From the NCBI GenBank assembly GCA_022565795.1, contig JAIUMA010000007.1:1-64000 (forward strand): DNA of 64,000 bases. The letters run 5' to 3'. Source of the DNA: Balneolia bacterium. GTDB taxonomy: Bacteria; Bacteroidota; Rhodothermia; Balneolales; Cyclonatronaceae. Below are positions 237 through 64,000 of the stretch, piece by piece (within the stretch, counting starts at the first letter, position 1; the number at the start of each line of letters is the position of its first letter). The notes beneath the pieces are model-generated. The model made no database searches. It was not told the origin of the DNA and saw nothing but the letters and a program-made list of their open reading frames with translations. The position numbers were made by a program, and so were the translations under genes.

Positions 237-277
237 AGGGTGATGGCGGTCAAACTCGATTCGAAACCCATCACCCT
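237..277 (+). terminator. Hairpin of two inverted GGGTGATG octamers, possible terminator
   Basis: AGGGTGATGG at 237-246 pairs perfectly with CCATCACCCT at 268-277, with a 21-base loop. Only a short T-rich stretch follows. The arms are two inverted copies of the octamer that recurs through the window. The hairpin lies in the gap after the partial gene ending at 189, so it may act as its terminator. The arrangement resembles Haemophilus and Neisseria uptake sequences placed as inverted pairs after genes. Confidence 0.45.
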
Positions 278-322
278 TTATCGTACAATTACTATTTATT
301 CGCATCCAACCGATTTAGCCCG

Positions 323-1243
323 ATGAGCACATCATACTCTTTGAAAACAGAACTTCTCAAGCGCATTATGGAACTATCCGAGCCGCTCGAACCGGTAGAT
401 ACCGGCGAAAAGCCCGTATTAAAAAAACTGGACGACATCAGGGCGGTTGTGTTTGATTTTTACGGCACGCTGTTCATGTCGGGCACGGGTGACACCATGA
501 TCGACGACCCCATGGGCAACGAAGCCCGCGCCTTCGAAGAAGCCTTCAAAACCATATTTCCGAAGCTGAAAAACCAGCCTGATCCCGAAGACGGCGCTGA
601 AATCTACAAAAATGCGATTCTCAGCAAGAAGGCGTCTATCAAGAAAAAAGAGGGCATCGAATATCCGGAGATTGAGATCAAGGAAATCTGGAAAGACGTG
701 TTTCGCGAATATGAAAAGCGCGAGTTCAAAGGGCTGCCGACCGATCCTGATGATGATCTGCTTCAGCGCCTGACCATCGAGTTTGAGATGCGTAATAATC
801 CGACCTGGCCGATGCCCGATCTGGAGGAGACGCTGGAAGACCTCAAGGAGAAAGAGCTGCTTTTAGGTATTTTATCCAACTCACAGTTTTACACCCCTAT
901 GATTTATGAGGCGCACACCGGATCCGAGCCCGGGCAAAACCATTTTGATGTGAACCTCTGTTTCTGGAGCTACCGTGAACGGATGTGCAAGCCGGCTCTA
1001 AGATTTCACGGGGCACTCAAACAGGCGCTGATGGCTCACTTCATGCTAATGCCCGAAGAGGTGCTGTACGTTGGCAACGACATGCTCAAAGATATCTATC
1101 CGGCCCATCACCACGGTTTCAAAACGGCGCTGTTTGCCGGAGACGACCGCTCCCTGAAATGGAGAAAAGACGATCCCCGCGTTAAAGGCGTAAAGCCGGA
1201 TCTGGTAATCGACCGGCTTCATCAGCTTGTGGACTGTGTCTAG
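323..1243 (+). CDS. HAD-superfamily hydrolase
   Basis: A 306-residue cytoplasmic hydrolase of the haloacid-dehalogenase superfamily. Motif I is DFYGT, with the nucleophilic Asp near residue 45. Tyr replaces the second Asp, as in haloacid-dehalogenase-type and some phosphatase members (DxYGT). Motif II is the Ser in ILSNSQ near residue 186, motif III the Lys in CKPALRF near 222, and motif IV is VGNDMLKD near 250. About 40 residues precede the Rossmann core and a long helical cap lies between motifs I and II. The substrate cannot be read from sequence. No Shine-Dalgarno is visible at the ATG. The gene ends in TAG and stands alone, converging on the DUF779 gene. Confidence 0.85.
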   Translation: MSTSYSLKTELLKRIMELSEPLEPVDTGEKPVLKKLDDIRAVVFDFYGTLFMSGTGDTMIDDPMGNEARAFEEAFKTIFPKLKNQPDPEDGAEIYKNAILSKKASIKKKEGIEYPEIEIKEIWKDVFREYEKREFKGLPTDPDDDLLQRLTIEFEMRNNPTWPMPDLEETLEDLKEKELLLGILSNSQFYTPMIYEAHTGSEPGQNHFDVNLCFWSYRERMCKPALRFHGALKQALMAHFMLMPEEVLYVGNDMLKDIYPAHHHGFKTALFAGDDRSLKWRKDDPRVKGVKPDLVIDRLHQLVDCV

Positions 1244-1245
1244 TT

Positions 1246-1290
1246 GCTGAGGCTGACTTAAGGAAATTCGATCAGGCTCAAAGCCTCAGC
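1246..1290. terminator. Weak inverted repeat between convergent genes
   Basis: GCTGAGGCT at 1246-1254 pairs with AGCCTCAGC at 1282-1290 across a 27-base loop and is followed by TTT on the plus strand. It sits in the 48-base gap between the convergent HAD and DUF779 genes. It may end one or both transcripts, but the long loop and short T run make it weak. Confidence 0.35.
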
Positions 1291-1291
1291 T

Positions 1292-1830: not shown

Positions 1831-1866
1831 CGCAGATGGGACCTGTCGTTCTATCAGGATTGAGGT

Positions 1867-5561: not shown

Positions 5562-5735
5562 AATTACGGTAGTTATGTTAGTAATAGTGTGGCAGCATGG
5601 CTAAGTATCCGAAACACAAGGGTGATGGTCTGCCTGAGTCAAAATGTACTAATGTGATATGATTAGTACACGCAGAAATAGTTGTTTACACATTAATTTT
5701 TGTAAAGGGGCGGCGTCAATGCGGCAATTTGCAAT

Positions 5736-6851: not shown

Positions 6852-9800
6852 TAGTGCAATATATTTCGACTTGAAAGCATCTTTGAAACCTGACGGTACA
6901 CGAGATGATTTATCGTGAAACCACGGCTGGTTTCCACAACAAGACCTTTTGCGGAAAGCCGGCCGAGTAAAAGCCTGGCTTCTGCCAAATCGTTGTGCAT
7001 GGCAAAGGAAAGCTCGGCAGCCGTTAAAACATCATGACGAATAAGGGCAGCGAGGGCAAATAGAATATCGCGGGAAGGCGTTTCCAGCGAGTCTATGTCG
7101 GCCAACTCAATCGGGTTCATAACCACGCCGTCATCATCAATCTTCTGAATGGCGTTTACCCAAAAAATCATCGCAATACTAAAATTTCCTTTTGCGGCTT
7201 CTGCAAGTCTGGCGAAGTACTCTTTCTGAAGATATTTCTGTATCTCCTTCTCATTGCCCAAGAGCTTGCGGAATGTCCTTGATCGCTGAATGTCATTAGA
7301 CGGCTTGAAGGTTAGTTCATAGCCTGTAGCGCGATGGCGTAGCAAAATCCCCTTTTCAATCTGCTCGCCTGTAAGGCTGTCGGTACGAAGAACCTGGGAG
7401 AAGAACTGATCGGCACTGAACATTTTCGTGAAGAACTGCCATGCGTTTCCACTGCAGCTTACCACCCAAAACAGTTTGCCGGTAGTCTGGGAGAAGAGCA
7501 CCCAAAACTCTGAAATAGCCTTGTAGCCGTTCACGTTACGTATATACAGATTCTGGAGCCCTTCAAGGATTATCACCCTTTTTTTACGGCTTTTGTGAAT
7601 TTTTTGGATCAAGGCATCGGTATCCTGCGTTTCTGCAAATCCCATCTTTTGGGAGATGATGGCGTTTATTGCTGCAGGATCAAAAAAGGTGTGCTCAAGG
7701 TTGATGTGCACCACGTCCTGCTTCACCGTTTCACTCTGCTTGAAAAAATGAAGCAGAGTGCTTTTCCCGCTGCCTTTCTGACCCGCAATAGCAATGCTCC
7801 AGGGAATCCCCTTATTCCACTGCTCATAGCCTTTATCCAGGTGAAGAAGGTTTCCTGCCGCATCCAGATAGTATTTTTTATCTATCTGGAAAGAGCGCCT
7901 GAATAACCGCTGATAAATAAAAGGCAGCTTTTCATCTGAGGTCTTGTGTTGTAAAAGATATTCTGTTAGCGACAGACGCGCCCGGGCCGAGTCGGTTGCG
8001 CCTTTACCTAATCCCAGATAACGGGATGCGGGCGTATAAACGACGAAAAACTTGCCTCTTGCATATCGCCAGGCAAGCGAGGCTTTATCCTGAGCGACGG
8101 CCGAAAACCGAACAAAGCGTTCTCGCCATCCAAGCGCTCTCTCTTTGGCCTGAAGCGCTTTGTCGCACATTTCAAATTCACTGTAGCGCCGCTCAGAAAT
8201 TAAACGGGAAAGCTTTTGATACGATCTGGGCAGATGCGTCCTGATTTCAGTTTCATACGCGTTTTGTTTCTCGCGAATGCTTTTAATAGACTTTTCAAGC
8301 GTCTGCACCGAGCGTTTGAGTCCGGAAATAGCAATTTCTATGGGTGCGTCTTCTTCTTCTTTTTCGTCAGAGGCCGCAGCTGCCTGCAGGTTGGCATCAA
8401 CAATTTCCGCCGCCTGCTCGATCTCGGCCGCCTGCTCTAAGATGAAGCCGCTGAAATGCTGCGTTTCCGGCCGAACAGGATTAAGCGCCTCGTTTTTGAT
8501 GAAGCGTGAGGCAATGCTTCGCCATTTAAACAGATCGGTTGTGATTTCGGGTAGTGGCATCGCAAAACTTCGCGTCTCAGCCAGCTGAAGCGTCTCGGTA
8601 AAGCTGTTTATTTCCAGCTCCAGATCGGATATGGTTTGCCGGATACTTGTTATGAGCCTTTCCTGAAGCTCTTTGTTCTGCATTCTGGCCAGAGAAGCAT
8701 CCATAAATTCGTTACGAAGCCTGTCTCGGATGGCATCGATTTTCTTAACGCTTTTTACACTGCTTGCGTCCTTTTCGAGCTGTGAGATGAGATCCCGCAA
8801 AAGCTTTACACCACTTTCGGTTGGTATATAGCAGGTGTCACGAAAGAAAACGTGGGTTTCATCCAGAAGGGTTTGAAGCGCACTCTTCAGCTTTGCACCA
8901 AATGATGCGAGCTCGCTGTGGACCTGCAGGTCAGTCAGCTGAGACTGAATATATACATTCCACTTAGAGAGGTTGCGGCGGACATTTTTCCGGGCTGTGG
9001 CCAATAGCTTGTTGAGCTTCGCATCGCTTAGTCGCCCGGAATTAAGCTCTGTGGTGCCTGCTTTTTTTGCTAAACTTATGATGTCATCAAAAGCCTGATT
9101 AAGGGCCGGATTGGTTGAATAATCACCTTCCGTGTATTCTTGAATGCTTTTTATGGCAAGGGTGATGTGCTCAGTAGCGTCATCAAAGAGGGGGCTGGAA
9201 AAAGATGGTTCCGTTTTTGCCGGTTTCTTTTCTTCGCTGCTTTCAGCCGTATCGTCGCTGCTGGCTTCCGGCTTCTTCTTGTCCTGAACGGTTGCGGTTG
9301 CTGCCAATAAGTTGTCCAGAGCTAAAGCAATCCTGGAGTGCTCAAAGCCAAGCGTTTCTGTAGATACGTCCTGCCGGCATAGCAACCCATACTTTAAGAG
9401 AGCTTGAAAGGGAATCTCCTGTGTCCAGAAGTAAGACTTGCCTTTGTCTCTGTGAAGCGCACTGCCTGCCTTGAAAGCCAGGCGCTTGATACTCTTTCGA
9501 AACTTAAGAGTGCGTGAATCCTGAGGCAAACCAGCAAATCGCTCATCACTCTGCAGAGCCAAAAGCTTTTCCGGCTCTTTGGCAATTTCCTCAAGCAGGA
9601 TTTGTTCCCAAACAGCATCCGGCTCACGAAATGAGGGGCTCTTGAGAATAGCTTGCAAGGCCTTTACGGTGTCTTCGAAAAGCTCAGGAATCCGTTCTTC
9701 TGCTCCCTCATGCTCGCGGCGCAATCTGATGATATCGGTGCGAAGCCGGCTTAGCTCTTCCAGCAGCACACCGGCAGTTCTTTGCCGGTACGAGGAAACA

Positions 9801-9913: not shown

Positions 9914-12031
9914 CTATTTAATTAACGTCATTTTTCTGGTGAGGACCTGATTTCCGGCTTCAAGGCGGTAGAAGTAAATACCGCTGGATAGCTGTGTTCC
10001 GTCGAAACGGGCGGCATGCTCTCCGGCCGGAAATGATCCGTTTATCACGACCGAAACGCGCTGCCCCATGCTGTTGTAGACCTCGAGTCTTACTGCTGAA
10101 GCCTCGGGAAGCGAGTAGCGAATCAGCGTGGTCGGATTAAAAGGGTTTGGGTAGTTTTGGGCCAGATAAAACTCATCGGGCGTTTCGATAGGATGTGGCG
10201 GCCCCACCGGCCCCCCGTCATCATTATTGAAAAAGACAACAGGAAGAGCGAGATCTTCTTCTGTAAGGGTGATGACACGGTTGCCGTTTTCACCCGGGCC
10301 GACATCATTGTTTTCCCACCCGTTGTTGGGAAGCGTGCGATCATCTCCGGCTTCTATAAAGAATTTGTACTGCGCTTCTTCTCCGTTGTCACCCTCAATG
10401 GAAAGCTGGGTGGTCCAGATTTCAGGGTTTTCCGGATCAGGAGAGAGCCGGCTTCCGTTTTCCTCGGAAACACTCCAGTCGTTAAAGCTGCCTAAAACGT
10501 GAACCAGATCACCATTTTCCGGCTGAAAAATGAGCATAAGCTGGATACTCATATCAACGCTGAAGATTACATCGCGAATTACAGGCTCAGGTTCGGGCTC
10601 ATCTTCACGCTCACCAAGGCTGCCGTCAGCAAACAGGTTTTGGGCCCAGATTTCACTGCTGCCGTTGCGATTATCCTGCCACGACATAAATACCTCATCG
10701 TCAGCGGCTTTCACGGAGTTCAGGCGAAATTTGCCGGACACAAGGGTCGAGATATCTGCGATTTCATCATCCCAGAACGCCTCCCCCGCAGAGTTAAAAC
10801 GCCTTGCGAGTATCTGGCTCTCGTCCATTCCGGAAAACTGCGTATAGACAATTACCGGATCTTCGTCAAAAACGAACGTGGTAAGTCCGCCAATGTCGTT
10901 ACCTGGAGCTACGTCTACAATGGCTATTCCGTCTTGACCCCAGCTGCGGTCATTATTTTCATCGATTCGTTGACCATAGAGCCCGACTTGGTTTTGTGAA
11001 CCATCCGTCTCTCGCCAGAAGGCGTAGATTGCATGGTCTTCCGGATCGTAGACTGCTTCAATAGAAGATCGTAGCCGTGTTGTATTTAGTGAAACAGGAA
11101 AACCTCCGGAACCAAAGCGCATGGTGCCGTTTGTATGAATTTGCTCCACATAGGACTGAAGGGCTGGCACAGACTGGTACCAGGAAATAAGCACTCCGCC
11201 TAAACCGTCTGAAACCATTTCCGGAAAAATACCCATCTGAAGAGAGCCGCTGGCCATAATTTCCAGCCTGTTGTTGAGACCGCCCCACTGGCGTTGCCCT
11301 TCAGCATTGTAGGCCTAAGCTGAAAGCCGGCCCGGCACGGTTGGCGGGCCTAATGTGCGAAATAGTACGGCATAAATAGAATGACCGTCGGCATTAGTAG
11401 AACGTTTAGTGTCTGATATAGCGAGAAAGACATCCGCAGTTTGAATGTCTTGCCATAATACAGAGCCATCGGGGCCGAGTCCTTTAATGACCGATTGTCC
11501 GTCGCCTGTGAAGGCTACGACCGCACCGCCATTGGGCATGGCCGCAATTTTGGGCGCGTTTATAAAGTCGAATCCTTCACTTACGTTAATTCCGTTCGCT
11601 CCCCAGGGAAATTCGCCATCAGGAGTGATTTTGACTGCTGTAATGCTTTCGACTCCGCTTCGGTCATCGCGGAAGGCAAGCAGAGCATTCCCACCTTCAT
11701 CGGTATCCAGGCCGTAGTCTTCGGTGGATGAAAAACCGCGCTGCGCAACTAGAAGTCCGGTTTCGTCCCATAAAATGTTGCCCGCTGCATCGAGACGCTG
11801 AAGACGGACATCGTAACCGGAAGGGGAGCCTGAAAACCAGCTAATGTACGTGCCACCCTGGGGCAAAAGCGCCATTTTAGGCTGGGCTTGGTCATCATCT
11901 CCGGTGGCAATCGGAAGATTCGATTCGGCATCACCACTCTACTGGGCGTGAACATGAGCAGGACTAAAGGTGAGAGTGAGTGCAACTACGGTCAAAAATG
12001 CAGCGAGCGTGATGCAGGATCTGATGAGCAT
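9914..12031 (-). pseudogene. T9SS-exported repeat protein interrupted by two in-frame TAG codons
   Basis: One frame runs from the ATG at 12031 to the stop at 9914, about 705 codons, without a frameshift but with two internal TAG codons. Residues 1-30 form a clean signal peptide ending in HVHAQ. The first TAG (11939-11941) follows directly. The second TAG (11315-11317) falls between segments ending GRLSA and beginning AYNAEGQRQW. The body carries repeats of the form D.AGNILWDETG and WGQDGIAI, suggesting a propeller-like fold. A carbohydrate-binding-like segment (VHVLGSFNDWS) precedes a C-terminal T9SS type A sorting domain with YPNPFNPTT. Each TAG could derive from a CAG Gln codon by one C-to-T change. 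A recent pseudogene is the simplest reading. Confidence 0.75.
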
Positions 12032-14491: not shown

Positions 14492-14532
14492 GCAGACGAC
14501 ATCACCCTACGATTACTTGATGAAATGACTTT

Positions 14533-15448: not shown

Positions 15449-15981
15449 TTTGAGAGCGGAATTTCGATTCGTGTTCGCTCCCACTCTATCACCAGATAAC
15501 CGGTAGTATCGTTTGACTTATCGATAGAAATGGTGAACAAATCGTTGTATTCCGAAGAGCGCTGCCGGGGCACATTAAAGCGAACTACATCGTATTCTCG
15601 GTTGTAACCGTACGACCCCCACTGTCCCAGCTGCTGATTAATAATGATGGTCCACTCATCGTCACCAGGGATGGTGAAAAGCGAGTAGGTGCCTGCCTCA
15701 AGACTGTGATCGGCAATAGTAAGTCCGCCGGTGAATGTGATCTCGGTAGCTTCATTGGCGCCTGTTCGCCAGACTTCACCAAAAGGAACCAAAGATCCGA
15801 AAATTTCGCGATCCCGTGCGTACGGGCGTCCGTAAATTACTTTCACATACACATCACCCAACATGGCTCTGGAGAGACCGAGCGGACTTTGCCGTGGTTC
15901 CGGAAGCGACTGACCCTGTGCCGGAGCAGCGAGAAAACCAAAAGTAAGCAGGGAAAGAAAAAATAGTAGACTAAGTTTCAT
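15445..15981 (-). CDS. DUF2911 domain exported protein
   Basis: A 178-residue exported protein with a signal peptide ending AAPAQGQS. The rest matches the DUF2911 family, recognised by SPLGLSRAMLGDVYVKVIYG, GRPYARDREIFGSLVPFGEVW and RTGANEATEITF. The family is common in Bacteroidota and has no known activity. It sits upstream of, and overlaps by four bases (ATGA), another exported protein, so the two are probably made together. A candidate promoter lies about 50 bases upstream. Confidence 0.85.
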   Translation of the reverse strand: MKLSLLFFLSLLTFGFLAAPAQGQSLPEPRQSPLGLSRAMLGDVYVKVIYGRPYARDREIFGSLVPFGEVWRTGANEATEITFTGGLTIADHSLEAGTYSLFTIPGDDEWTIIINQQLGQWGSYGYNREYDVVRFNVPRQRSSEYNDLFTISIDKSNDTTGYLVIEWERTRIEIPLSK

Positions 15982-18906: not shown

Positions 18907-20199
18907 CTAAAGTATAGCAGATGTTACAACTATATCGCCTTCCATTGAAGCATGCGGGGCGCAGTTGTAGGTAGCTACCCAATCTGCGAGGTTTCCCGTG
19001 AGGGTAAAGGTGATGATACCATTCTCTTCATCAACCACTACGTTGGCAGGCTCGTAGTCTTGCAGACTTCCGTTTCCTGCTTCAGCAACAAGGACTTCGG
19101 CAGAACCGTCGCGAAACTGAAAAGGGTGATTTCCGGAGCCAAGGTTAATTATCTCGTAACGAAGGCCTTCCTGGAGGGTGATGGTAGTATTTTCTACACC
19201 AATTTCCGCGGAGATACCTTCGCCTTCGAATGATTCCACTACCCATGCGGATGCACCAACATTATTAATCGTGATGGTCCCGTCCACAGCCGTTTCTTCT
19301 CCGCCGGGAATAAGCACAGCATCAATAACATGAATTACGCCGTTAGTACCGTCATTATCAGCAGAAGTTACAACAGCTGAACCGTTAATGGTTACGACGC
19401 CGTCGGCGATTCCTACAGTCAGATCCTGGCCGCCAAGGGTTGTGATAGTCTGGCCATCCTGAAGATCACCCGAAAGTGCGCGTGCATCGACAACGTGGTA
19501 AAGTAAAACTTCAGTTAGTTCCTCTATGCTAAGACCAGCAACAACGTCTTCGATTGCTGCAAACGCTTCGTTTGTCGGAGCAAAAACAGTGAACTCAGCA
19601 TCAGGATCAGACAATGCTCCGGCTAAATCTGCAGTAACCACTGCGTCTACAAGAGCACTAAGAAAATATCTCTTCTGTGCATTTTCAACAACGTTGCCAA
19701 ACGCATCCGGCAGAAGCACAGTGTCGATTACGTGAATGACACCATTTGCAGCAAGAACATCAGCAGTAGTAACTGATGAGTTGCCGTTTAGCGTAACGTT
19801 CATACCTTCGGCCTGAATGAATAGGTCATCGCCATTAAGCGTGGCAACTATTTGCTCAGGTTGAAGGGCACCGGAGCCCACTTCTGCTTCCAGCACGTGG
19901 TAGGTAAGAATTTCGCTAAGCTGCTCGGTAGTCAGACTTGCGAGAAGGCCTTCAGGAAGTGCTTCAAATGCATCATTGGTTGGAGCAAAAACGGTAAAAG
20001 GACCTGAACCGTCGAGTGCACCGTCCAGATTGGTATCAACGAGTGCGCCAACAAGTATTGAAAGATTATCGTCAGCTACGGCAATATCCACGATGGTTGG
20101 TTCATCGGGGTCAACCGCGCTGGTTGAAGAACTGCTGTCGCAGGCACTTACGAGAAATGCCAGCGAAATCATAGCTAAGAGGTAATGATAGAGTCTCAT
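18907..20199 (-). CDS. Lipoprotein with two FAS1 domains fused to a blue-copper (cupredoxin) domain
   Basis: A 430-residue lipoprotein starting at the ATG at 20199; a longer frame to 20259 adds a non-signal leader and is rejected. The lipobox is LVSAC. Two FAS1 domains occupy about residues 30-310. The last ~110 residues are a plastocyanin/azurin-like cupredoxin with a full type 1 copper ligand set: His in GNHPFQF, then Cys, His and Met in NCAPHASM. The FAS1 part would bind a surface or partner and the copper site would carry electrons outside the cell membrane; this is inference. The fusion is uncommon. No membrane oxidase or other redox gene lies nearby. Confidence 0.92.
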   Translation of the reverse strand: MRLYHYLLAMISLAFLVSACDSSSSTSAVDPDEPTIVDIAVADDNLSILVGALVDTNLDGALDGSGPFTVFAPTNDAFEALPEGLLASLTTEQLSEILTYHVLEAEVGSGALQPEQIVATLNGDDLFIQAEGMNVTLNGNSSVTTADVLAANGVIHVIDTVLLPDAFGNVVENAQKRYFLSALVDAVVTADLAGALSDPDAEFTVFAPTNEAFAAIEDVVAGLSIEELTEVLLYHVVDARALSGDLQDGQTITTLGGQDLTVGIADGVVTINGSAVVTSADNDGTNGVIHVIDAVLIPGGEETAVDGTITINNVGASAWVVESFEGEGISAEIGVENTTITLQEGLRYEIINLGSGNHPFQFRDGSAEVLVAEAGNGSLQDYEPANVVVDEENGIITFTLTGNLADWVATYNCAPHASMEGDIVVTSAIL

Positions 20200-20473: not shown

Positions 20474-21085
20474 TTAATCCCGATAGAAAACGGCTTTGAA
20501 ATCGCTCCAGGTAAACGAAGAGCCGGTTCCGTTGTCGGTCCATGAGGCAATTGACCAAAGGCCGCTTTCATCCTGTACTAAATCGATGATAAAATTACCG
20601 GTAGCTACATTGGGCACGTTTGTAGACGTGCGGTTGTGGAACACACTAAGCGAATAGGAGGCGGTAATACGCTCACCGCCGTCTGGAAGGGTGGTGCGCT
20701 GCTCATTGGAGAGCTGCAGAACGTGTCCGCTTTGGTTCTGTGCGGAAGCTCTTAAATTGTTGAAATAGGTTTCTTCATCAATCACGGACCAGCCCTGCCA
20801 CAACTGCGGATCGTCGTCCAGCGCAGCGGATGAAGGCGTGAACTCAAACATATCCGCATTGAGCGAACGGATGTAGTTTACCGTATTAAGATTGGCAACT
20901 GCAGACTGCAGATTACTGATTACCAGCTCAGGCCTGTCGGGCTGCTGAAATCCGGAACCTGTTCCGGCTCCGGGCTCCTCTGCGCTTCGGGTTTCAAAAA
21001 TACCGCAGCCCGCAAGCGTAAAGCTTGCTGTCGCAATTATAAGCAGGGTGATGCGGGCCGATATGTGAAGATTAAAGGTTTTCAT
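20474..21085 (-). CDS. Lipoprotein of unknown function, possibly NTF2-like fold
   Basis: A 203-residue lipoprotein. The ATG at 21085 gives a good signal peptide with lipobox LAGC; the longer frame to 21229 lies inside the neighbouring gene and is rejected. After a Gly/Pro-rich linker, a helix-rich part is followed by strands ending in GNFIIDLVQDESGLWSIAS. This layout is typical of NTF2/SnoaL-like domains, suggesting a small binding domain. The start overlaps the end of the pseudouridine synthase gene by 14 bases, so it may be translated from the same message. No function is known. Confidence 0.65.
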   Translation of the reverse strand: MKTFNLHISARITLLIIATASFTLAGCGIFETRSAEEPGAGTGSGFQQPDRPELVISNLQSAVANLNTVNYIRSLNADMFEFTPSSAALDDDPQLWQGWSVIDEETYFNNLRASAQNQSGHVLQLSNEQRTTLPDGGERITASYSLSVFHNRTSTNVPNVATGNFIIDLVQDESGLWSIASWTDNGTGSSFTWSDFKAVFYRD

Positions 21086-29988: not shown

Positions 29989-30420
29989 TCAGCTTCTGTA
30001 AACTACTCTGAAGCGTCTTTGTTGTGCGCCGCTCTGCTCAATATGAATATCTATGCGCTGTTCGGGCAGGAGTCCTGCTATCTTTTCGGGCCATTCTATC
30101 ACGCTGATGCCTTCACCATACAGGTAATCTTCCGTGCCAATTCCGCGAGCTTCATCAAGGGACTCAATGCGATAGGCATCGAAGTGGTAGATGGGTATGG
30201 TGCCATTGTATTCCTGGATAAGAACAAAGGTAGGGGAGTCGACCTCGTTCGGATCGATACCAAAGGCAGTGGCAAAGCCTTTCACAAAATGTGTTTTGCC
30301 AGCGCCCAGCGTGCCATACAGGCAAATAACATCACCCGGTTCGCAGGATGATGCCAGCTCCCGTGCAAACGCTAAGGTCTCTTCAACCGATGATGTTTCT
30401 CTTGTTATATCGTTGCTCAT
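29989..30420 (-). CDS. tsaE: tRNA threonylcarbamoyladenosine biosynthesis ATPase TsaE
   Basis: The ATPase partner of TsaB and TsaD in making the t6A37 modification on ANN-reading tRNAs. The 143-residue protein has Walker A GTLGAGKTHF near residues 36-45, the family signature VDSPTFVLIQEY, and IYHFDAYRI followed by VIEWPEKI. These are all typical TsaE blocks. It is followed after 25 bases by a small protein of unknown function. Upstream lies a 440-base intergenic region with a structured candidate leader for the divergent mrp operon. Confidence 0.95.
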   Translation of the reverse strand: MSNDITRETSSVEETLAFARELASSCEPGDVICLYGTLGAGKTHFVKGFATAFGIDPNEVDSPTFVLIQEYNGTIPIYHFDAYRIESLDEARGIGTEDYLYGEGISVIEWPEKIAGLLPEQRIDIHIEQSGAQQRRFRVVYRS

Positions 30421-43600: not shown

Positions 43601-44442
43601 GCTCGCCTAACGGGCCTATCCCGCTGGTGGCCGTAGCCGACTTCGAAGAGGGAACAGGCTTGGGTACCATCACCCGTCTGAATCTGCAGCGTACTGCAAC
43701 CGTTGAAGGTCAGGCCGCGAGCGGTTTCTCCGGTCCGGAAGTGCTTGGTGAAGTTCAGGGTCTGCTGGCCGACTACATCGATGATTTGCCTCCGGGCTAC
43801 ACGGTTCGATACACCGGTGAAAGCGAAGATCAGGAGGAGGCGTTCGGCTTCCTTACGACTGCGCTGCTGGTTGGATTCGCTCTCATTTTCCTGGTGATGC
43901 TTGCTAAATTCAACAATATCAAATCGCCGCTTATTATTATGACGGCCGTAGGGCTTAGCCTCATTGGGGTACTGCTTGGACTCGTGCTTACGCGTACACC
44001 GTTTGGCCTCATGACCTTTATCGGAATCATTTCGCTTGCGGGCATTGTGTGCGTGAATAACATTGTACTGCTCGATTATGTGAAGCAGCTCACCGATGGC
44101 GGCATGAAAAAAATGGAAGCCATCATCGAAGCGGGGACCATACGTTTTCGCCCCGTAATCCTTACTGCGCTTACAACCATTCTGGGTCTGGTTCCGCTTA
44201 CTTTTGGAATAAATATTGACTTTGTGGGGCTGTTTGCCTCATTTGATCCAAACTTCCAGTTTGGGTCTGAAAGCACGGCATTCTGGGGTCCTATGGGGAT
44301 TGCGATTATTAGCGGACTCACCTTTGCCACATTCCTTACGCTGGTTGTGGTTCCGGTTCTCTACTCCGCTTTCGATTCCGTTGCAGCCCGTTTATCGAAG
44401 AACTTATATGCCGAAGAGGAAGTCAGTGTAGATGAAATCTAA
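40624..44442 (+). CDS. RND efflux permease with additional membrane helices
   Basis: A proton-driven inner-membrane efflux transporter of the AcrB/MexB superfamily. At 1272 residues it is some 200 longer than usual. Porter domains and TM motifs are typical, including GLLVDNSIVVVENIYRY with the proton-relay Asp. The extra length lies between TM6 and the second porter domain (roughly residues 525-745). There I count six additional hydrophobic segments: two before and four after the normal linker and TM7. An even number keeps the second half in its normal orientation. The C-terminal half resumes at FFPETDPSR. The substrate is unknown. It is the last gene of the TetR-controlled unit. Confidence 0.93.
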   Translation: MILNDITLKNRTVILVLTVILIAAGAFSYSSIPKESNPSIEIPIFIVNTIYPGISPSDMESLVTQPIERELQGINGVKDIRSTTLESVSSVVVEFELDVPLVEASQRVRERVDIARADLPADIEEPVIIEIDLDDFPIMTVNLAADYPLSRLTEVAERMEDMLETVQGVREIDMVGQVEREVQVNVDLDALNGYGIPLTALVQAIQGQNLTIPGGTIDVDRFSYLIRVSGEFQDPEEILDLVIPMPAGGEGPPPEGLVYMRDVANVIFGFKDRESFARLRSYKVDDNGKLVEVPAEEIQDREVISLNIKKRPAANILETVEAVMAAVEDFPLPGGTQVVISGDQSEQVRTLISDLENSIISGMLFVVLVLVFFLGIRNALLVGTAVPLSILVGFIVLFALGYTANFVILFSLIIALGLLVDNSIVVVENIYRYREMGYEKFEAAKKGADEVSYALIAATSTLLAAFIPMTFWPGIIGQFMGYLPFTLIVVLLCSLFVALVLYPVLTAYLVKKEGETSRPISKGYKFLLYGLGVFALISIGVANPVTLMVTVLVAVFFVATYRFIIKPLSAKFNETTMPAILQWYRGFLEWMLRRNYKARAAMFRNTFALGMLTVGVLILIFGGLVMLFSQAGFALVVLGGIFAVIGIIVIMIHFFEIMIRGNKYSVYGGLVLGVIIAVILSLVSIGTPVALGTWILLMGLPVALIVFGALGVLLNMKTDKPLLVTDNRSLLLNSVLGLMISIFALFSFAPTGVEFFPETDPSRIVIELEGPIGMNVHASNEVAREVQSRIYNLIDEDPLVKANIENIQINVGVAGDPFFGGGNQSPELSRLTVNLVDYGDRPEPSARTMEKIRGVVRDLPDIVVNIEGEQQGPPTGAPVNIEVSGEDFDEVIRITREITEKLVEASSTREIPGLVDIRNNVSGGSPEYRILVDYERANRFGLTLSDIAQTIRIANNGLDASKWRDGEDEYDITVRLREEDRQSLESLRELNIGSPNGPIPLVAVADFEEGTGLGTITRLNLQRTATVEGQAASGFSGPEVLGEVQGLLADYIDDLPPGYTVRYTGESEDQEEAFGFLTTALLVGFALIFLVMLAKFNNIKSPLIIMTAVGLSLIGVLLGLVLTRTPFGLMTFIGIISLAGIVCVNNIVLLDYVKQLTDGGMKKMEAIIEAGTIRFRPVILTALTTILGLVPLTFGINIDFVGLFASFDPNFQFGSESTAFWGPMGIAIISGLTFATFLTLVVVPVLYSAFDSVAARLSKNLYAEEEVSVDEI

Positions 44443-45112: not shown

Positions 45113-45380
45113 ATTTGCTCTGGTTCATGAAAAAGCTTCGTGAAACTTCGGGACCTCGTATCCACATGGCATTCCTGAGGTGGATAAATTTTCACCGCGG
45201 AGGCACAAAGAAAGACGAAGTGTACGAATGAATCGAACCGTTTAGTGGGTGATGGCATCAGGGCGAAAACCAGTGTGTTACTATCAGGGCTTTATTATCT
45301 GCTGATTTCGCTTATTTTATCACCAGCTTTTGATATATCAATCACAGCCCTCAGGGTAAAATAACTTTACGACTCATACT

Positions 45381-48529: not shown

Positions 48530-49117
48530 ATGGCTATGGACAATAATGGAGAACACCGCGGCGAGATCACGCGGCAGCTTATCAGTATAAAAGACGGAGA
48601 CAAAGTAGCGTATGAAAAGCTCTACGGGCTTGTTTACGACCACCTTCGTAATATTGCTATTCGCGAACTGAATCGGGAAAGCGGAATGCACACGCTTGGT
48701 AAGACCGATCTGGTACATGAGTCATTTCTGAAGCTTATTGATCAGTCTACCATCGACTGGCAGGATCGGCGTCACTTTTTTGGAATTTCAGCACGTGCTA
48801 TGCGTCAGATACTGATTGACTATGCCCGCAAGAAAATGGCCAAAAAGCGCGGGGGTGATGTTTCGCACATGACTCTCAATGAGGATATCATGAAAAGCAG
48901 CATGCAGGCCGAAGAGTTGATTGAAATCAACGACGGCCTTGAGGAGCTTCGTAAAGTTGATGAGCGCCTGGCAGAAGTGGTTGACCTTCGCTTTTTCGCA
49001 GGTCTGCCTATCGAGGAAATCGCGGAGCTTATGGATTCATCAAGAAGCACCATTCACCGCGACTGGATTAAAGCACGCGCCTGGCTCTATACCTATCTGA
49101 AGGAGCAGCAGAAGTAG
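48530..49117 (+). CDS. ECF-type RNA polymerase sigma factor (TIGR02999 type)
   Basis: A 195-residue sigma factor of the ECF class described as TIGR02999/Sigma70_ECF. Region 2 contains LYGLVYDHLRNIAIREL and GKTDLVHESFLKL. Region 4 contains FAGLPIEEIAELMDSSRSTI. In other bacteria this class is often linked to serine/threonine kinase or TPR genes, but no anti-sigma factor or kinase is adjacent here. The ATG at 48530 is chosen; an ATG six bases later and an upstream TTG are also possible. Its target promoters are unknown. Confidence 0.88.
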   Translation: MAMDNNGEHRGEITRQLISIKDGDKVAYEKLYGLVYDHLRNIAIRELNRESGMHTLGKTDLVHESFLKLIDQSTIDWQDRRHFFGISARAMRQILIDYARKKMAKKRGGDVSHMTLNEDIMKSSMQAEELIEINDGLEELRKVDERLAEVVDLRFFAGLPIEEIAELMDSSRSTIHRDWIKARAWLYTYLKEQQK

Positions 49118-52617: not shown

Positions 52618-54669
52618 CTACATTTCTTTTTTGAGTTGTTCAATCTGGTCGCGTATGCGTGCGGCCTCTTCAAACTCAAGATTACGGGCGGCCGTTTTCA
52701 TCTCTTCCATCAGGTGATCGAGAAACTTGTCCTTATCATCGAAAACGACCTCCTTCATGGCTGGATTCGGTCGGTAGTGAATACCGTCGTCGGCTACTTT
52801 GATTAGCTGGACCTCGTCGTCGGCTTCGTAGGCCTGCTCAAGATCGATGGATTTATTTGAAATGAGCGAAGGATCAACCAACGGCTTGAGCTCTTTGACA
52901 ATGGTGGTCGGATCAATGCCGTGTTTTTCGTTGTACTCGGCCTGTATTTTACGGCGGCGATCCATTTCATCCATCACCTTCTTCATGCTTTTTGTAACCT
53001 TGTCGGCGTACATGATTACGCGACCCTGAACGTTTCGGGCAGCGCGTCCGGCAATCTGGAAGAGCGAGGTATCTGAACGAAGGAAGCCCTCTTTGTCCGC
53101 GTCAAGAATGGCAACCAAGCTGAGCTCCGGAATATCAATTCCCTCCCGAAGCAGGTTAATGCCCACCAAAACGCTGAAATCGCCGCGGCGGAAGCGGTAG
53201 AGAACCTCTATACGCTCCAGCGCATCGAGTTCGCTGTGCATGTAAGCCGCTCTGATGCCCATATTTTTGAGATATTCACTGAGCTCCTCACTCATGCGCT
53301 TGGTCAGCGTTAGCACCAGCACGCGCTCACCCTTGGCAATTACGGTTCTGATTTCATCAATCAGATCATCAATCTGGTTTTTGAGCGGACGCATCTCCAC
53401 TTTGGGCTCCATCAGTCCCGTCGGGCGGATAATCTGTTCCACGAATGCCCCGCCTGACTGTTCCAGCTCGTAATTGGCCGGGGTGGCGCTTACAAAAATG
53501 CACTGGTTCACCATGCTTTCCCACTCCTGGAAGGTGAGGGGACGGTTGTCAAGAGCCGATGGCAGGCGAAATCCGTGATCGACCAGGCTCATTTTACGGG
53601 AGCGGTCACCGCCGTACATGGCGTCAATCTGCGGTACAGACTGATGGCTTTCGTCCATCACGATAAGGTAATCGTCCGGGAAGTAATCCATCAGGCAGAA
53701 GGGGCGCTCGCCCGGCTTTCGTCCGGCCAGATAGCGGGAGTAGTTCTCAATTCCGGGACAGTAGCCGATTTCTTTTATCATCTCTACATCAAAAACCGTT
53801 CGCTGTTCGAGTCTTTGGGCTTCGAGGTACTTTTCTTCCTCGCGAAGCACATCAAGGCGCCAGTTCAGCTCATCCTGAATCTGCCGGATGGTTTCCTCCT
53901 GTCGCCCTTTACTTGTTACATAGTGCGAAGCCGGATAGATGGTGAACTCATCAACCTCCTCCAGGATTTTCCCGGTTTCGGGATCGAAGATGGAGAGCTT
54001 CTCAATTTCATCGGCCCAGAACTCGATGCGCAGCGCGTGCTCGGAATAGGCGGGAATAATATCAACCACATCACCGCGAACGCGAAACGTGGATCGCTTG
54101 AAATCGTAATCGTTGCGGGAGTAGTGAAGCTCAACAAAATCATACAAAAGCTTATTGCGCGGGGTGATGTCGCCCACTTTCAGCGGGATAATCAATTTGG
54201 CGTATTCCGAAGGCGAGCCGATACCATAGATACAGCTGACGGATGCCACAATGATGACATCACGGCGGCCCGAAAGCAATGAGCTGGTGGCACGAAGCCG
54301 GAGCCGCTGGATTTCGTCGTTGATGGAAAGGTCTTTTTCGATGTATTTATCGCTGGAAACGATATATGCTTCCGGCTGATAATAGTCGTAGTAGCTAATG
54401 AAAAACTCCACGCAGTTGTCCGGAAAAAAATCGCTGAACTCGCGATATAACTGAGCGGCAAGCGTCTTGTTGTGGCTCATCACCAGCGTTGGCTTGTTAA
54501 CCTGCTCAATAACGGAGGCAATGGTGCGCGTTTTCCCGGAGCCTGTAATCCCCAAAAGCGTTTGAAACTTCTCTCCGTGATTAAGACCATCCGTCAGTGA
54601 TTTGATGGCCGTAGGCTGATCGCCCGCAGGCTTGAAATTAGACTTTAGCTGAAATTGTGATGATGCCAT
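52618..54669 (-). CDS. uvrB: UvrABC excinuclease subunit B
   Basis: The damage-verification helicase of nucleotide excision repair; it is loaded by UvrA and recruits UvrC. The 683-residue protein is full length, with Walker A GITGSGKTRTIA, the beta-hairpin region SYYDYYQPEAYI, helicase motifs such as FVSATPANYELE and QIAGRAARN, and a C-terminal UVR motif (EFEEAARIRDQIEQLKK). It heads a minus-strand run that includes a methyltransferase, aat and an ABC exporter. Its own stop and start are clear. Confidence 0.98.
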   Translation of the reverse strand: MASSQFQLKSNFKPAGDQPTAIKSLTDGLNHGEKFQTLLGITGSGKTRTIASVIEQVNKPTLVMSHNKTLAAQLYREFSDFFPDNCVEFFISYYDYYQPEAYIVSSDKYIEKDLSINDEIQRLRLRATSSLLSGRRDVIIVASVSCIYGIGSPSEYAKLIIPLKVGDITPRNKLLYDFVELHYSRNDYDFKRSTFRVRGDVVDIIPAYSEHALRIEFWADEIEKLSIFDPETGKILEEVDEFTIYPASHYVTSKGRQEETIRQIQDELNWRLDVLREEEKYLEAQRLEQRTVFDVEMIKEIGYCPGIENYSRYLAGRKPGERPFCLMDYFPDDYLIVMDESHQSVPQIDAMYGGDRSRKMSLVDHGFRLPSALDNRPLTFQEWESMVNQCIFVSATPANYELEQSGGAFVEQIIRPTGLMEPKVEMRPLKNQIDDLIDEIRTVIAKGERVLVLTLTKRMSEELSEYLKNMGIRAAYMHSELDALERIEVLYRFRRGDFSVLVGINLLREGIDIPELSLVAILDADKEGFLRSDTSLFQIAGRAARNVQGRVIMYADKVTKSMKKVMDEMDRRRKIQAEYNEKHGIDPTTIVKELKPLVDPSLISNKSIDLEQAYEADDEVQLIKVADDGIHYRPNPAMKEVVFDDKDKFLDHLMEEMKTAARNLEFEEAARIRDQIEQLKKEM

Positions 54670-55476: not shown

Positions 55477-56799
55477 ATGAGATACCCACTCATATTTACC
55501 GTGCTGGCTTTGTCTGCACTTCTTCTTGTATCCTGCGGGAATGAAACACCGTCAGTAGATAGAACTGTGACTGCCTATACCGGCGCAACCATGATAAACG
55601 GGCTGGATCAGCCTGCAATCGAAAACAGCGTCCTCGTAGTCGAAAACGGAATGATTACCGAAGCCGGTGCGCGCGGTCAGGTTGATATTCCTCAAATTGC
55701 CGATATCGTGGATATTACCGGAAAGTACATCATGCCGGGCCTGATTAACGCGCACGGGCATGTCGGAATGGCTGACGGGCTCGAAACAGGCAGCGATGTC
55801 TTCACCCGTGATAACGTTCGTTCTCAGCTTCTTACATACGCTCAGTATGGCGTAACCACGGTTGTAAGTCTGGGAGACGGGCGGGTTGAAGGTGCCCGTT
55901 TTCGGGATGAAATGCTGTTTGATCAGCACATCAATCTGGCGCGCTATTATCTGGCGGGTCCGGTAATCAGTGTGGATACTCCAGAGGAGGGGCGTGAAGA
56001 GGTGCGCAGATTGCATGAAGCCGGCATGGACTGGATTAAAATCAGAATAGATTCCGGCCTTGGTACACGTGAAAAAATGCAGCCGGATGTCTATCAGGCA
56101 ATTGCTGATGAAGCAAACAGACTGGGCCTGCCATCAGCAGCTCATATCGTGGAGCTGGAAGATGCCATTGGCGCAATTGAGGCGGGATACTCACTCATCG
56201 CGCACAGCATCAGAGATACGGAAGTGAATGATGAGCTCATCTCACTAATGGTTGAAAATGGAATACCCATCACCCCAACGCTCACGCGGGAAGTCTCTAC
56301 CTATATTTACCGCGAGCGTCCGGATTTCTTCGATGATCCGTTTTTCCTGCGAACAGCCGACCCGGAGGTAATCGCACAGCTCGAAAGCCCCGAAAGACAG
56401 CAACAGTTTGCGGACAGTGAGGCCGGTGCATATTTCGAGCAGCAGCTTCCGCTGGCAATGGAAAATATGATGAAGTTGTATGAGGCGGGCGTAATCGTGG
56501 CGATGGGAACCGACAGCGGTCCGCCGGCCCGGTTTCAGGGATATTTTGAGCACATGGAGATGGAAATGATGCAGGATGCGGGAATGAGTCCGCATGCCAT
56601 CATTATGTCCGCTACATCGCTTGCGGCAACGGCAGTAGGATTGGATAACCTCACCGGATCGCTTCAGGAGGGACTGGCTGCCGATTTCATCATTTTGGGC
56701 GATAATCCGATGGATGATATTCAAAATCTGCGGTCTCTTGAAGCTGTATACGTGATGGGAAATGAAGTTCCTATGCCGCTTCAGGATGAGGCGAATTAA
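55477..56799 (+). CDS. Amidohydrolase-family lipoprotein
   Basis: A 440-residue exported metal-dependent hydrolase. The signal peptide carries lipobox LVSC. The amidohydrolase metal site is visible: HxH in NAHGHVGM, the Lys in WIKIRID, His in AAHIVE and IAHSIRD, and Asp in GTDSGPP. Homologues include imidazolonepropionase-like and prolidase-like enzymes, and the true substrate is unknown. The nitrilase gene follows after 17 bases, so the two may act on related C-N bonds. The lipobox places it outside the cytoplasm. Confidence 0.9.
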   Translation: MRYPLIFTVLALSALLLVSCGNETPSVDRTVTAYTGATMINGLDQPAIENSVLVVENGMITEAGARGQVDIPQIADIVDITGKYIMPGLINAHGHVGMADGLETGSDVFTRDNVRSQLLTYAQYGVTTVVSLGDGRVEGARFRDEMLFDQHINLARYYLAGPVISVDTPEEGREEVRRLHEAGMDWIKIRIDSGLGTREKMQPDVYQAIADEANRLGLPSAAHIVELEDAIGAIEAGYSLIAHSIRDTEVNDELISLMVENGIPITPTLTREVSTYIYRERPDFFDDPFFLRTADPEVIAQLESPERQQQFADSEAGAYFEQQLPLAMENMMKLYEAGVIVAMGTDSGPPARFQGYFEHMEMEMMQDAGMSPHAIIMSATSLAATAVGLDNLTGSLQEGLAADFIILGDNPMDDIQNLRSLEAVYVMGNEVPMPLQDEAN

Positions 56800-57706: not shown

Positions 57707-60337
57707 CTATCGCTCTATAGACGCACCGCTAATGGTGCTGCCGAAGAACAGGCTGTTGGCAAACAGCTTGTTTGTGCCGAACCAGAAGGCCCGGAAATTG
57801 GGATTGTCAGCAAACATGATAACACGGCCTGAGCCACGTCCAGAAACCAGTACGGAAGCCGTGCCCGGCAGCATGTCTAGATTCTGCGAAGAGATGTAGC
57901 CGCTGATGAGCGGGTTATCGGTATAGCGAATCGGCGCCGCATACTGATTATTCGGCGGATCCATAAAAATGGTGCTGTTGCGGAATACGCTCAGATGCTC
58001 GTTGCGGTAGCCGTACGTAAGCGGATGGGTGAGATCCATTCTGGTTTCGAAAATGCTTCCTCCAATCACTTGTGCGCCGCGATTGTTGGAAAGGTCGGCA
58101 TAGGGCAGAGGTGAATCATCCTCATCCGAGTCACGGCTTGCAAACGACGCTGATGCCATTCCATTTTGAACCAGCCAGCTTGCCGCACCTTTATAGGCAA
58201 TGACAAGCCCGCCGCCCGAAATCCAGTCGGATAGACGCTCGCGTGCATTCTGGCTGATTCGGTTGTAGTTGCCGTTTGGCATTACAATAGTATTGTAGCG
58301 ACTCAAGTCCAGGCTGTTAAACCGATCGGTTTCCACCATGGTTACCGGCACGTTGTAGCGCTGATCGAGCTGGAACCATGTTTCACCGGCTTCGCTCACG
58401 TTCACGCCGTCTCCGGTAATGAGCAGAACTTCCGGGCGCTGCAGGGTCGTAATATTCGGTGAACCAAGATCGATGCCGCCACGCGCCAGGCCTGTATCAA
58501 CGGCATAAACGCTGATCGCATTCTCCCGGGCCGTTTCGCGAATCATCGCAAAAAGCTCTTCAGGGCTGCACGCATCCTGAATGGCAACCGGAACAATGAT
58601 GGAACCCACGGCAAACTCGCGCTCACCTTCAGTGGTTGGCAGAGCAAAACTACGGTTAGATACCATGGTACGCACATCGTTGTACTGCAAATCGTGAAGC
58701 GCGCGCGGTGCGTAATAGCCATCCCATTCGAAAATGTAGGCTACTCTGGCCTGTCCGCCGATTATCTCACCTTCAGGGAAGCTGAGGTTTTCGAAATCAA
58801 CTGCTTCACCGAGCAGATTTGTGCTGAATGCACGACGTCCCAGCTCTGCATGATCCAGGTTGAAAGCATGCGGAAGTGACCAGGTCGACACATCATAAAA
58901 CAGACTGTCGGTAAATTCGGTGCGCGTTTCAAACAGGCTGCGCACCAAACGGTACTGAGGCTGCTCAGCCGGAATGATAAAGTCACGTCCTGCTTCGAAA
59001 TCAGTATCGTTCGCGCTCAGATTGCGGTTGAGCTGGTAGACGTTAATTTGATGTCTGCCCAGAATGTCGAGCAGATGGTAGATTCTCGCCGGATCGTGAG
59101 GCGCACTGAATACGTAGCCGCGTACATCGTCGTTGCGGGCGTCTTCAATAGCGCGCAGAAAATGCGTACGGGTGAAGTCGAGAAGTTCGGTGCGGAGGGC
59201 ATGCGAACCACTAACGGTCGAGAGTGAAGTCTGAAACTGATTTCTGATGGTTTCAGGGAAGGGAACAAGCCCGTGCTGACTCTCCTGCACGTGACCTCTC
59301 GAGCTCGCCTGCTCAAACAGAATACCAATACTGCCGTTCAGATCCGGATAGGTTGAGCCCTTTCCAACATAAAAATCATCGAATGATTCCTTGGTGTAAT
59401 AAAGCTGCCCGAAGCGGTCCAGATACTCGGCATGATATTCCGCAAGCTTGGCCGTAAGCTCGTAATTGCGCTCAAGCGTAAGCGGGTTGTTACGTGAAGG
59501 AATTCCGGGCTGGAAGAAATAGGTGGCGTTTGTACCCATCTCATGGTGATCAGTAAGCACGTTTGGCTTCCAGTGGTGGAACATCTCGAGTCTGCCGCGG
59601 CTTTCGGGGTGCTGAAGAGGCATCCAGTCACGGTTGAGGTCGAACCAGTAGTGGTTGGTTCTGGAGCGCGGCCAGGGTTCGTTGTACTCGCGGTCACGCG
59701 GATCTGCGGTGAGGCGGTTCAGATTACGATGAGAATTTACCCAGCTTACAAAGCGATCCTGTCCGTCGGGGTTGAAGCTTGGATCAAGCAGAATTACGGT
59801 CTCGCGAAGCAGATCGTCTATGCCCTGAGCCGCGGCGTAGTAGTAAGCCGCAAGAAGCGCTGCATTCGCACCGCTGTGCTCATTCCCGTGAACGCTGTAG
59901 CCAAGCCAGACAACGGCCGGCATGTCGCTGATATCGGCATTCCGGGAAACCTGCGGATCGGCCAGCGATACGTGGCGCTCGCGAATTTCCTCAATATTCT
60001 GCTGGTTATCGGGATGGGTGATGGTGAGCAGAATCAGCGGGCGCAGCCCGTGGGTACGGCCGTATTGATGCAGGGTAACGCGATCGGATGCCTCAGCGAT
60101 GGCTTCAAGGTAGCGAACGCCAAGATCATGGCGCAGGTGCCATTCACCAATGTTAAATCCGAGCACCTCCTGTGGAGTCGGGATCGATTCATCGTAGGCA
60201 ACATCACCGGGAAGAAAGTAGCTTAAGGGCACGCTGGCATCATTCTTGAATTGCTCAGCGAAAGTCTGGGCTTGTGCGATGGCAGGCATCAACAGAAACA
60301 AAACAGCCGCAAAAACAGGCAGTAGCTTCAGCTTCAT
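57707..60337 (-). CDS. Exported M14-family zinc carboxypeptidase
   Basis: An 876-residue secreted peptidase, started at 60337 where the signal peptide MKLKLLPVFAAVLFLLMPAI begins; the frame to 60397 is rejected. The M14 domain has the zinc ligands in VHGNEHSGAN (HxxE) and downstream FDLNRDW and TDHHEMG. The catalytic Glu is probably in GILFEQAS. A C-terminal region (LLITGDGVNVSEAGETW and beyond) resembles a class I glutamine-amidotransferase-like/DUF4350-type fold. It would trim peptides outside the cell. A GGGTGATG octamer lies within it at 60015. Confidence 0.9.
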   Translation of the reverse strand: MKLKLLPVFAAVLFLLMPAIAQAQTFAEQFKNDASVPLSYFLPGDVAYDESIPTPQEVLGFNIGEWHLRHDLGVRYLEAIAEASDRVTLHQYGRTHGLRPLILLTITHPDNQQNIEEIRERHVSLADPQVSRNADISDMPAVVWLGYSVHGNEHSGANAALLAAYYYAAAQGIDDLLRETVILLDPSFNPDGQDRFVSWVNSHRNLNRLTADPRDREYNEPWPRSRTNHYWFDLNRDWMPLQHPESRGRLEMFHHWKPNVLTDHHEMGTNATYFFQPGIPSRNNPLTLERNYELTAKLAEYHAEYLDRFGQLYYTKESFDDFYVGKGSTYPDLNGSIGILFEQASSRGHVQESQHGLVPFPETIRNQFQTSLSTVSGSHALRTELLDFTRTHFLRAIEDARNDDVRGYVFSAPHDPARIYHLLDILGRHQINVYQLNRNLSANDTDFEAGRDFIIPAEQPQYRLVRSLFETRTEFTDSLFYDVSTWSLPHAFNLDHAELGRRAFSTNLLGEAVDFENLSFPEGEIIGGQARVAYIFEWDGYYAPRALHDLQYNDVRTMVSNRSFALPTTEGEREFAVGSIIVPVAIQDACSPEELFAMIRETARENAISVYAVDTGLARGGIDLGSPNITTLQRPEVLLITGDGVNVSEAGETWFQLDQRYNVPVTMVETDRFNSLDLSRYNTIVMPNGNYNRISQNARERLSDWISGGGLVIAYKGAASWLVQNGMASASFASRDSDEDDSPLPYADLSNNRGAQVIGGSIFETRMDLTHPLTYGYRNEHLSVFRNSTIFMDPPNNQYAAPIRYTDNPLISGYISSQNLDMLPGTASVLVSGRGSGRVIMFADNPNFRAFWFGTNKLFANSLFFGSTISGASIER

Positions 60338-60438
60338 AAGAGTAGTTGTTTGGTAAGAGTTAGTTGATTTTGATCTCGCCGGAGCTGGTTTTGACACGGC
60401 GAACTGCCTTATGGTACGGCATCAAAATGAAAAACTCT

Positions 60439-62652: not shown

Positions 62653-62729
62653 CGATTTAGCACTTATGTTAATGGTTAATCACTCTGAATATAATTTTTT
62701 TTAATAAATCATCCTATCTTTTGCAAAAA

Positions 62730-63428
62730 TCAACGGCTTCCAAAAATGGCGCTTCCTACCCGAACCATGGTTGCACCTTCCTCAATGGCTACTTCGAGAT
62801 CGTTCGTCATTCCCATTGAAAGATGATCGAGTGAGGCTCTTTTATATCCTTTGGCCTTTTCCTGCTGGAGCAACTCGCGGAGCTTGCGAAACTGCGGCCG
62901 GACCTTTTCAAGATCTTCCTCCAGCGATGCTATGCCCATAAGTCCGCGTATTCTTACAAAAGGCATGTTTTCTCCGGCTTCGATGAGGGCAGGTAAGTCT
63001 TCCGGTTCACAGCCGAATTTTTGATCTTCATCGCTGATGTTAACCTGAATGAGCACGTTTATCTCCCGGCCGGACTGCTCCGCCCGCTTGTTAATCTCTT
63101 TGAGGGCTTTGAGTTTAGGCACGGAATCGATCCAGTCCACTTCGTCGGTGAGGTATTTTATTTTATTTGACTGAAGGCCGCCTATCATATGCCAGATAAT
63201 TTTATCGTCGCCGCTGAAGTGCTCCATTTTGGGCACAAGCTCCTGCACTTTGTTCTCCCCGAAGTGAATATGCCCTAGCTTGCGAACGGCCTCTATGGCT
63301 TCATTAGGCTTGGTTTTGCTAACGGCAACAAGGGTGATTTCCTCCGGCGATCTGTCGCAGGCCCGGCAGGCATTTTCAATGCGTGCTGCCACTTCGCTGA
63401 GGTTGGATTTAAGGTCGACGTTACTCAT
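62730..63428 (-). CDS. YggS-family pyridoxal-phosphate homeostasis protein
   Basis: A 232-residue cytoplasmic PLP-binding protein (PLPBP/YggS/YlmE family). The PLP lysine is Lys38 in VAVSKTKP. The family blocks [22 protein letters not shown] and [16 protein letters not shown] are all present. It is a barrel without known enzyme activity that buffers PLP and amino-acid balance. The ATG at 63428 is chosen over an in-frame GTG at 63431. It is upstream of, and on the same strand as, the histidine kinase. Confidence 0.95.
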
Positions 63429-63698
63429 CACAAATATAGATTATCGGGATTACAGATTTAAGAATGCGGTTAATTAGTGCTCCACCTGATAACGCCTTAA
63501 CGTGTAGTATCGTTGTTGAGCAAGTCCGGGATAATTCTAAGGATTGTCAGTAACATAAAAAAGCCGTATTTTAATAAATCTGTACAAGAATTAAACGTTT
63601 TATAGTTAATGCTGAAATCCTTGCGGCTTTCAAGCGATCAGATTTATAAGCGAACGAGACGACCGGAAAAGTTCATAAAAATCGGAAAATCTTAGTTC

Positions 63699-64000
63699 AT
63701 GACAGTTCTGACGCGACATATCTCCGACTTTCTCGAGCATTTGGCCCCAAATGCTACAAAAATGGACTACGATAATACGGGTCTCTTAGTTGGAAACTAT
63801 GATCAGCAGATAGAAAATGTGTTAACCTGCCTCGATGTCACTCCTGCCGTAATCGACGAGGCCATTCAAAAAAATGTACAGCTCATCGTCGCGCATCACC
63901 CGCTCATCTTTCCGAAATTAAAGCGCGTAATTTCAACCGATCCGGTCGGAGGAATGGTTCAGAAGCTGATTCGCAACAACATCAGCCTGATTGCCTCCCA
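63699..64000 (+). CDS. Nif3-like dinuclear metal-centre protein (N-terminal part)
   Basis: The frame from the ATG at 63699 is open to the window end and gives 100 residues starting MTVLTRHISDFLEHLAP. It matches the Nif3/YbgI family, with DYDNTGLLVGN and the metal-binding VAHHPLIFPKLKR. The protein is cut off by the window. The 270-base gap before it (63429-63698) is AT-rich with no gene. A GGGTGATG octamer (reverse complement) lies in the HHP codons. Confidence 0.88.
   Translation, partial: MTVLTRHISDFLEHLAPNATKMDYDNTGLLVGNYDQQIENVLTCLDVTPAVIDEAIQKNVQLIVAHHPLIFPKLKRVISTDPVGGMVQKLIRNNISLIAS

Follow-up and report, generated by a model that had tools for sequence, protein, structure and literature searches.

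The octamer GGGTGATG, read as CATCACCC on the opposite strand, recurs throughout a 64-kb stretch of bacterial DNA (the window, analysed over its whole length of 64,000 nucleotides) and throughout the genome that holds it. Judging from genome sequence, we consider it the probable core of a lineage-specific DNA uptake sequence, independently evolved and marking the DNA of one genus as 'self', and we give this reading a probability of about 0.7. The reading is drawn from an unpolarised high density, an asymmetric extended motif, an excess between genes, terminator-like inverted pairs and restriction to a single genus. With somewhat less assurance, we further propose that self-specific uptake sequences originated independently a third time, here for the first time outside Proteobacteria and at the root of a single Balneolota genus, and that a pilus receptor unrelated to ComP or ComN would read them. 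DNA discrimination by such tags is known only from Neisseriaceae and Pasteurellaceae (PMC12616744), and a search of open-licence papers brought up no such motif for Balneolota. The host bacterium is apparently of a soda-lake type, in the genus Cyclonatronum of Balneolales; the relatives of one window protein come from Balneolales and Balneolaceae and are mostly metagenome-assembled.

Enrichment and extent of the motif

The window contains 25 exact copies of the octamer, compared with a mean of 1.45 and a maximum of 5 in 100 dinucleotide shuffles, and GGGTGATG is its top octamer under a third-order Markov model (25 versus 3.0 expected). All 25 copies had been listed in an earlier note on this DNA, whose coordinates stand except for two that were off by one (the copies start at 38822 and 60016, not at 38823 and 60015). 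Its count of 14 copies with an A directly before the core came out the same when repeated; such copies include those at 5620, 9160, 10267, 14500, 19176, 21046, 21455, 24880, 37611 and 37907.

Between genes lie a facing pair at 238..276 (238-245 on the plus strand and 269-276 on the minus strand), which is followed after 46 bp by a HAD-hydrolase-like gene (323-1243), and single copies at 5620..5627 (+), 14500..14507 (−, directly past the DEAD-box helicase gene 12806-14491), 45247..45254 (+) and, according to a simple gene caller, 21046..21053 (+). Six copies fall within minus-strand reading frames, namely 9160..9167 (+) in 6851-9877, 10267..10274 (+) in 9914-11257, 15852..15859 (−) in 15445-15981, 19176..19183 (+) in 18907-20259, 21455..21462 (−) in 21072-22316, and 60016..60023 (+) in the peptidase M14 gene 57707-60397. 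Plus-strand genes or frames hold 24880..24887 (−, in 23014-25602), 33498..33505 (−, in 31546-33879), 43668..43675 (−, in the AcrB-family gene 40624-44442) and 56268..56275 (−, in 55477-56799). A second pair, GGGTGATG-N13-CATCACCC at 27822..27850, has the spacing typical of the genus and lies, exceptionally, within a gene, that of thiamin pyrophosphokinase (27637-28293). The remaining copies are at 30330..30337 (−), 37611..37618 (−), 37907..37914 (−), 38822..38829 (−), 48853..48860 (+), 54162..54169 (+) and 63894..63901 (−). Neither window pair carries a long T tract, and the spacing of the pair at 238-276 is wider. As a separate observation, the product of the gene at 23014-25602 is large and secreted and combines a Por_Secre_tail domain (type IX secretion sorting) with a dockerin-like repeat.

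The genome to which the window belongs (G000; 3.59 Mb in 145 contigs) carries 484 + 492 = 976 copies on the two strands, a density of about 270 per Mb, compared with 20 + 18 = 38 copies of the same octamer read backwards. In an 839-kb sample of G000, GGGTGATG is again the most over-represented octamer, with 220 copies against 36.6 expected (third-order Markov), or about 6-fold. Near-misses at the last base had been described earlier as few, and changes of that base are close to expectation in this sample. The same holds for changes at the 2nd, 4th, 5th and 6th bases, from which the 7th-base variant GGGTGACG/GGGTGAGG stands out. Not all near-misses are few, since GGGTGAAG, TGGTGATG and AGGTGATG are enriched about 2-fold or more. 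The enrichment of some 1st-, 3rd- and 7th-base variants suggests that such changes are partly tolerated. In the same sample, the palindrome CGATATCG is enriched (82 versus 29.7) and, among A/T homopolymers, AAAAAAAA is strongly depleted (71 versus 214).

The excess is found both inside and outside genes. The 188 genic copies compare with a mean of 39.8 and a maximum of 54 in 100 shuffles of synonymous codons within genes, which preserve the proteins and the codon usage gene by gene, and no other octamer departs as far from these shuffles. Between genes, 50 copies were counted against 3.8 expected, about 13-fold; since intergenic DNA is free of codon constraint, this counts against codon bias, which the earlier note had rightly judged insufficient on its own. 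Nor is the enrichment confined to Ile-Thr codon pairs in one frame, as copies occur in all five frames without an in-frame TGA as well as between genes (simple gene caller). The density of copies is about 1.5 times higher between genes than within them, in line with a preference for permissive sites.

Beyond the octamer, sequence preferences extend over a motif of about 22 bp with the consensus TnnAGGGTGATGGCnTYCGnRnY. Flanks were analysed on 44 unpaired intergenic copies, with the first G of the core numbered 0, and each preference was significant at p < 0.001. Upstream, T is preferred at −4 and A at −1 (both 0.68). Downstream, the preferred bases are G at +8 (0.55), C at +9 (0.52), T at +11 (0.73), Y at +12 (0.87), C at +13 (0.48), G at +14 (0.45), R at +16 (0.79) and Y at +18 (0.71). 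Most of these biases persist in coding DNA against frame-matched control octamers.

Inverted pairs and distribution in the genus

Facing pairs of the form GGGTGATG-N4..24-CATCACCC occur 18 times in G000, mostly with a spacer of 12 or 13 nucleotides, where we estimate from the counts that about one would be expected by chance. Among 19 pairs from three genus members, strong hairpins are predicted and 17 lie outside genes, many of them 20-60 bp past gene ends; several sit between convergent genes with A- and T-tracts, for instance aaaaaaGGGTGATG...CATCACCCtttttt. With their near-constant spacing past gene ends, these pairs resemble intrinsic terminators, a function that we predict from their sequence and position. 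Uptake sequences of the DUS and USS types are similarly arranged as inverted terminator pairs (PMC12616744, PMC3630211). Pairs with the flanking A number 15, 13, 5, 2, 1 and 0 in six genus members, and none was found in ten outgroup genomes (16 genomes tested). About 3% of copies sit in inverted pairs; the share in Neisseria or Haemophilus is higher. Just beyond the window, at G000:C7:70765-70786, two genes also flank a long palindrome that is nearly perfect, tttgtataGGGTGATGggctCATCACCCtatacaaa.

A comparison with related Balneolota, as the earlier note had suggested, places the motif in a single genus. In a set of 129 genomes of the order, the six members of the genus have 598, 532, 507, 413, 285 and 180 copies of AGGGTGATG, and no other genome exceeds 102. 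The 15-bp form AGGGTGATGNNNTYC is counted 147, 108, 81, 77, 63 and 17 times in the six and at most 8 times in each of the 123 others. These counts indicate that the motif arose at, or survived only in, one genus, and that its strength varies inside it. Enrichment is weak in the complete genome G005 of the same genus (one contig, 4,294,247 bp), with 59 copies against 25.9 expected in 480 kb; this genome has no inverted pair with the flanking A in the 16-genome comparison. In the G005 stretches, the top octamer is TTTTGGGG (70 versus 23.1) and the top 9-mer AAAGCAAGG (34 versus 5.3), both possibly due to repeats or to another motif.

Conservation of the octamer across species is moderate, with turnover. 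Between G000 and G002 (75% identity over aligned parts) it is retained in 30 of 67 orthologous cases, where octamers of all kinds are kept at 13.5% and those similar to it at 31%, a comparison in which coding constraint is not fully separated. As for a depletion of the motif in foreign DNA, the largest motif-free stretch in the sample carries core genes. This 36.7-kb stretch (G000:C8:33448-70158) had been considered as a mobile island and was rejected as one because SecA, YidC and aconitase are encoded within it.

Strand polarity and competing readings

The strand and flank tests covered stretches totalling 1.29 Mb, about 36% of G000. The earlier note had proposed mapping strand bias, and none was found: in GC-skew-oriented 20-kb pieces, 129 copies were on the leading and 125 on the lagging strand (95% interval 0.44-0.57), and the tally by contig was 119:121. 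The control, the Escherichia coli Chi sequence GCTGGTGG, gave 27:10 when scored in the same way by 20-kb pieces, and 38:19 when copies were assigned to the true replichores. In G005, our own tally of about 35:24 is not significant, and nearly half of those copies are expected by chance.

This lack of polarity would also suit a motif bound inside the cell by a DNA-binding protein that has about a thousand sites, for instance one that organises the nucleoid. The length and partial degeneracy of the motif and the near-even spread of its copies (variance/mean 1.17 in 10-kb bins) speak for such a protein as well. Most sites, however, lie within genes, no candidate protein is known, and the terminator-like pairs at fixed spacing and the confinement to one genus are left unexplained, so that we regard this explanation as unlikely. 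A dyad-symmetric protein site was also considered, since the averaged flanks seemed palindromic at a 21-bp spacing. It was rejected: the positions show no compensatory pairing, and the apparent symmetry was traced to the terminator pairs and the asymmetric downstream flank.

Still less probable is that GGGTGATG is the Chi site of the genus, at which the encoded RecBCD would switch from degradation to recombination. As the earlier note had recommended, gene content was compared, and G000 encodes both candidate readers, namely RecBCD, as a complete recC-recB-recD operon, and the ComEC, DprA and pilus machinery. Like E. coli Chi, GGGTGATG is an octamer, G-rich on one strand, of roughly comparable density and accompanied by RecBCD, and it is the top over-represented octamer. 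Unlike E. coli Chi, which is polarised with replication, it is unpolarised, long-flanked and decoupled from the presence of RecC. Published work counts polarity among the properties that define Chi (PMC8022716), and the 129:125 distribution rejects a 3:1 ratio (p = 1e-16). In genome G004, a member of the same genus rated as 100% complete, no match to RecC was found, yet the octamer is present 951 times, a mismatch that an assembly gap could explain. Conversely, of 60 genomes of the order, 50 have RecC and nearly all of these lack the motif, and the full motif is absent outside the genus. To our knowledge, a conserved flank and terminator pairs are not features of Chi. The earlier note had offered Chi and uptake sequences as analogues without choosing between them; the former is disfavoured by the lack of polarity and of coupling to RecC, and the genomic signature favours the latter. 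Two other sequences in the 1.29-Mb sample are both over-represented and replication-polarised, GAGCAGGG (88 versus 43.8; 47:14) and likewise TGAGCAGG (73:36), and each could possibly be an FtsK-orienting or Chi-type motif.

It is very improbable that the motif is recognised by a restriction or modification system and over-represented for protection: an HphI-type core, GGTGA, is contained in the motif, but restriction sites are usually avoided rather than enriched, and the extended flank and the terminator pairs would be unexplained. Equally improbable is an origin as a side effect of biased codons, dipeptides or oligonucleotides, or as a dispersed repeat family; two favourable reading frames do hold two thirds of the copies, but codon or dipeptide bias was already refuted by the synonymous shuffles and the intergenic excess, a mobile repeat was rejected as no conserved flank or homology extends past about 22 bp, and the full motif is absent from other families of the order.

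Putative uptake route and known parallels

The reading as an uptake sequence calls for machinery by which DNA could be imported, and genes of this kind are present in G000. ComEC is matched above its cut-off, DprA is encoded, and a type IV pilus cluster comprises PilB, a PilT-family ATPase, T2SSF/PilC, a PilO-like protein and a secretin. PilB and PilT are named here by best match and Pfam, since neither reaches the NCBIfam equivalog or subfamily cut-offs. The canonical prepilin domain PF07963 was not found in G000. Next to pilB, several short proteins have N-terminal helices like those of pilins, and these proteins are candidates for the receptor. The pilus cluster lies at about 73.0-88.1 kb of G000:C6, and the pilin-like proteins in it have unusual N-termini that PF07963 misses. 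Between pilB and pilT, the cluster also encodes three larger proteins, paralogous to one another, in which GLIIVQG-type segments recur.

From the motif and these genes we infer sequence-specific binding and uptake and a likely identity of the receptor. When a cell is competent, the motif on free DNA would be bound by a receptor on the cell surface, for which a minor pilin of the type IV pilus is the likeliest candidate. Retraction of the pilus through the secretin would then pull the DNA inside, where ComEC would hand one strand to the cytoplasm and DprA and RecA would recombine it. We propose that, because tagged fragments are preferentially taken up, a new copy of the motif would be spread by recombination as a biased drive, which would let copies build up on either strand wherever genes tolerate them. 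Copies may also accumulate as inverted pairs with a second role in ending transcription.

DUS and USS are characterised by copy numbers in the hundreds to thousands, by inverted pairs acting as terminators and by location at permissive sites (PMC12616744, PMC3630211, PMC2397512). The traits of an uptake sequence found here comprise the copy number, the lack of polarity, the extended motif, the intergenic preference, the terminator-like pairs, and the competence and pilus genes. The motif resembles the USS of Pasteurellaceae (Hin-USS AAGTGCGGT and Apl-USS ACAAGCGGT) in having a short core with a degenerate flank, a high copy number on both strands, inverted pairs as terminators (predicted here), and a type IV pilus with ComEC (Rec2) machinery. 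It differs in its unrelated sequence, its other phylum, its density of about 270 per Mb, its fewer inverted pairs and its role in uptake, which here is predicted from the genomic signature. With the DUS of Neisseriaceae (eight dialects around GCCGTCTGAA) it shares terminator-like pairs, a bias towards permissive sites, lineage-specific dialects and a copy number that varies among species; its sequence is again unrelated, and the Neisseria receptor is ComP, whereas here there are candidates only. The cyanobacterial HIP1 (GCGATCGC) is likewise a highly iterated octamer but, unlike GGGTGATG, it is palindromic and linked to methyltransferases (PMC4390886).

If the uptake reading is true, sequence-specific uptake would have a third instance, in a distant phylum, which would mean that it evolves repeatedly and would offer an independent test of whether it evolves through self-recognition, drive or a mechanical constraint on uptake. 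Natural transformability would then also be expected of bacteria for which genetic tools are at present lacking. As the six genus members range from strong to weak enrichment, the gain and decay of such an uptake language could be traced together with its receptor.
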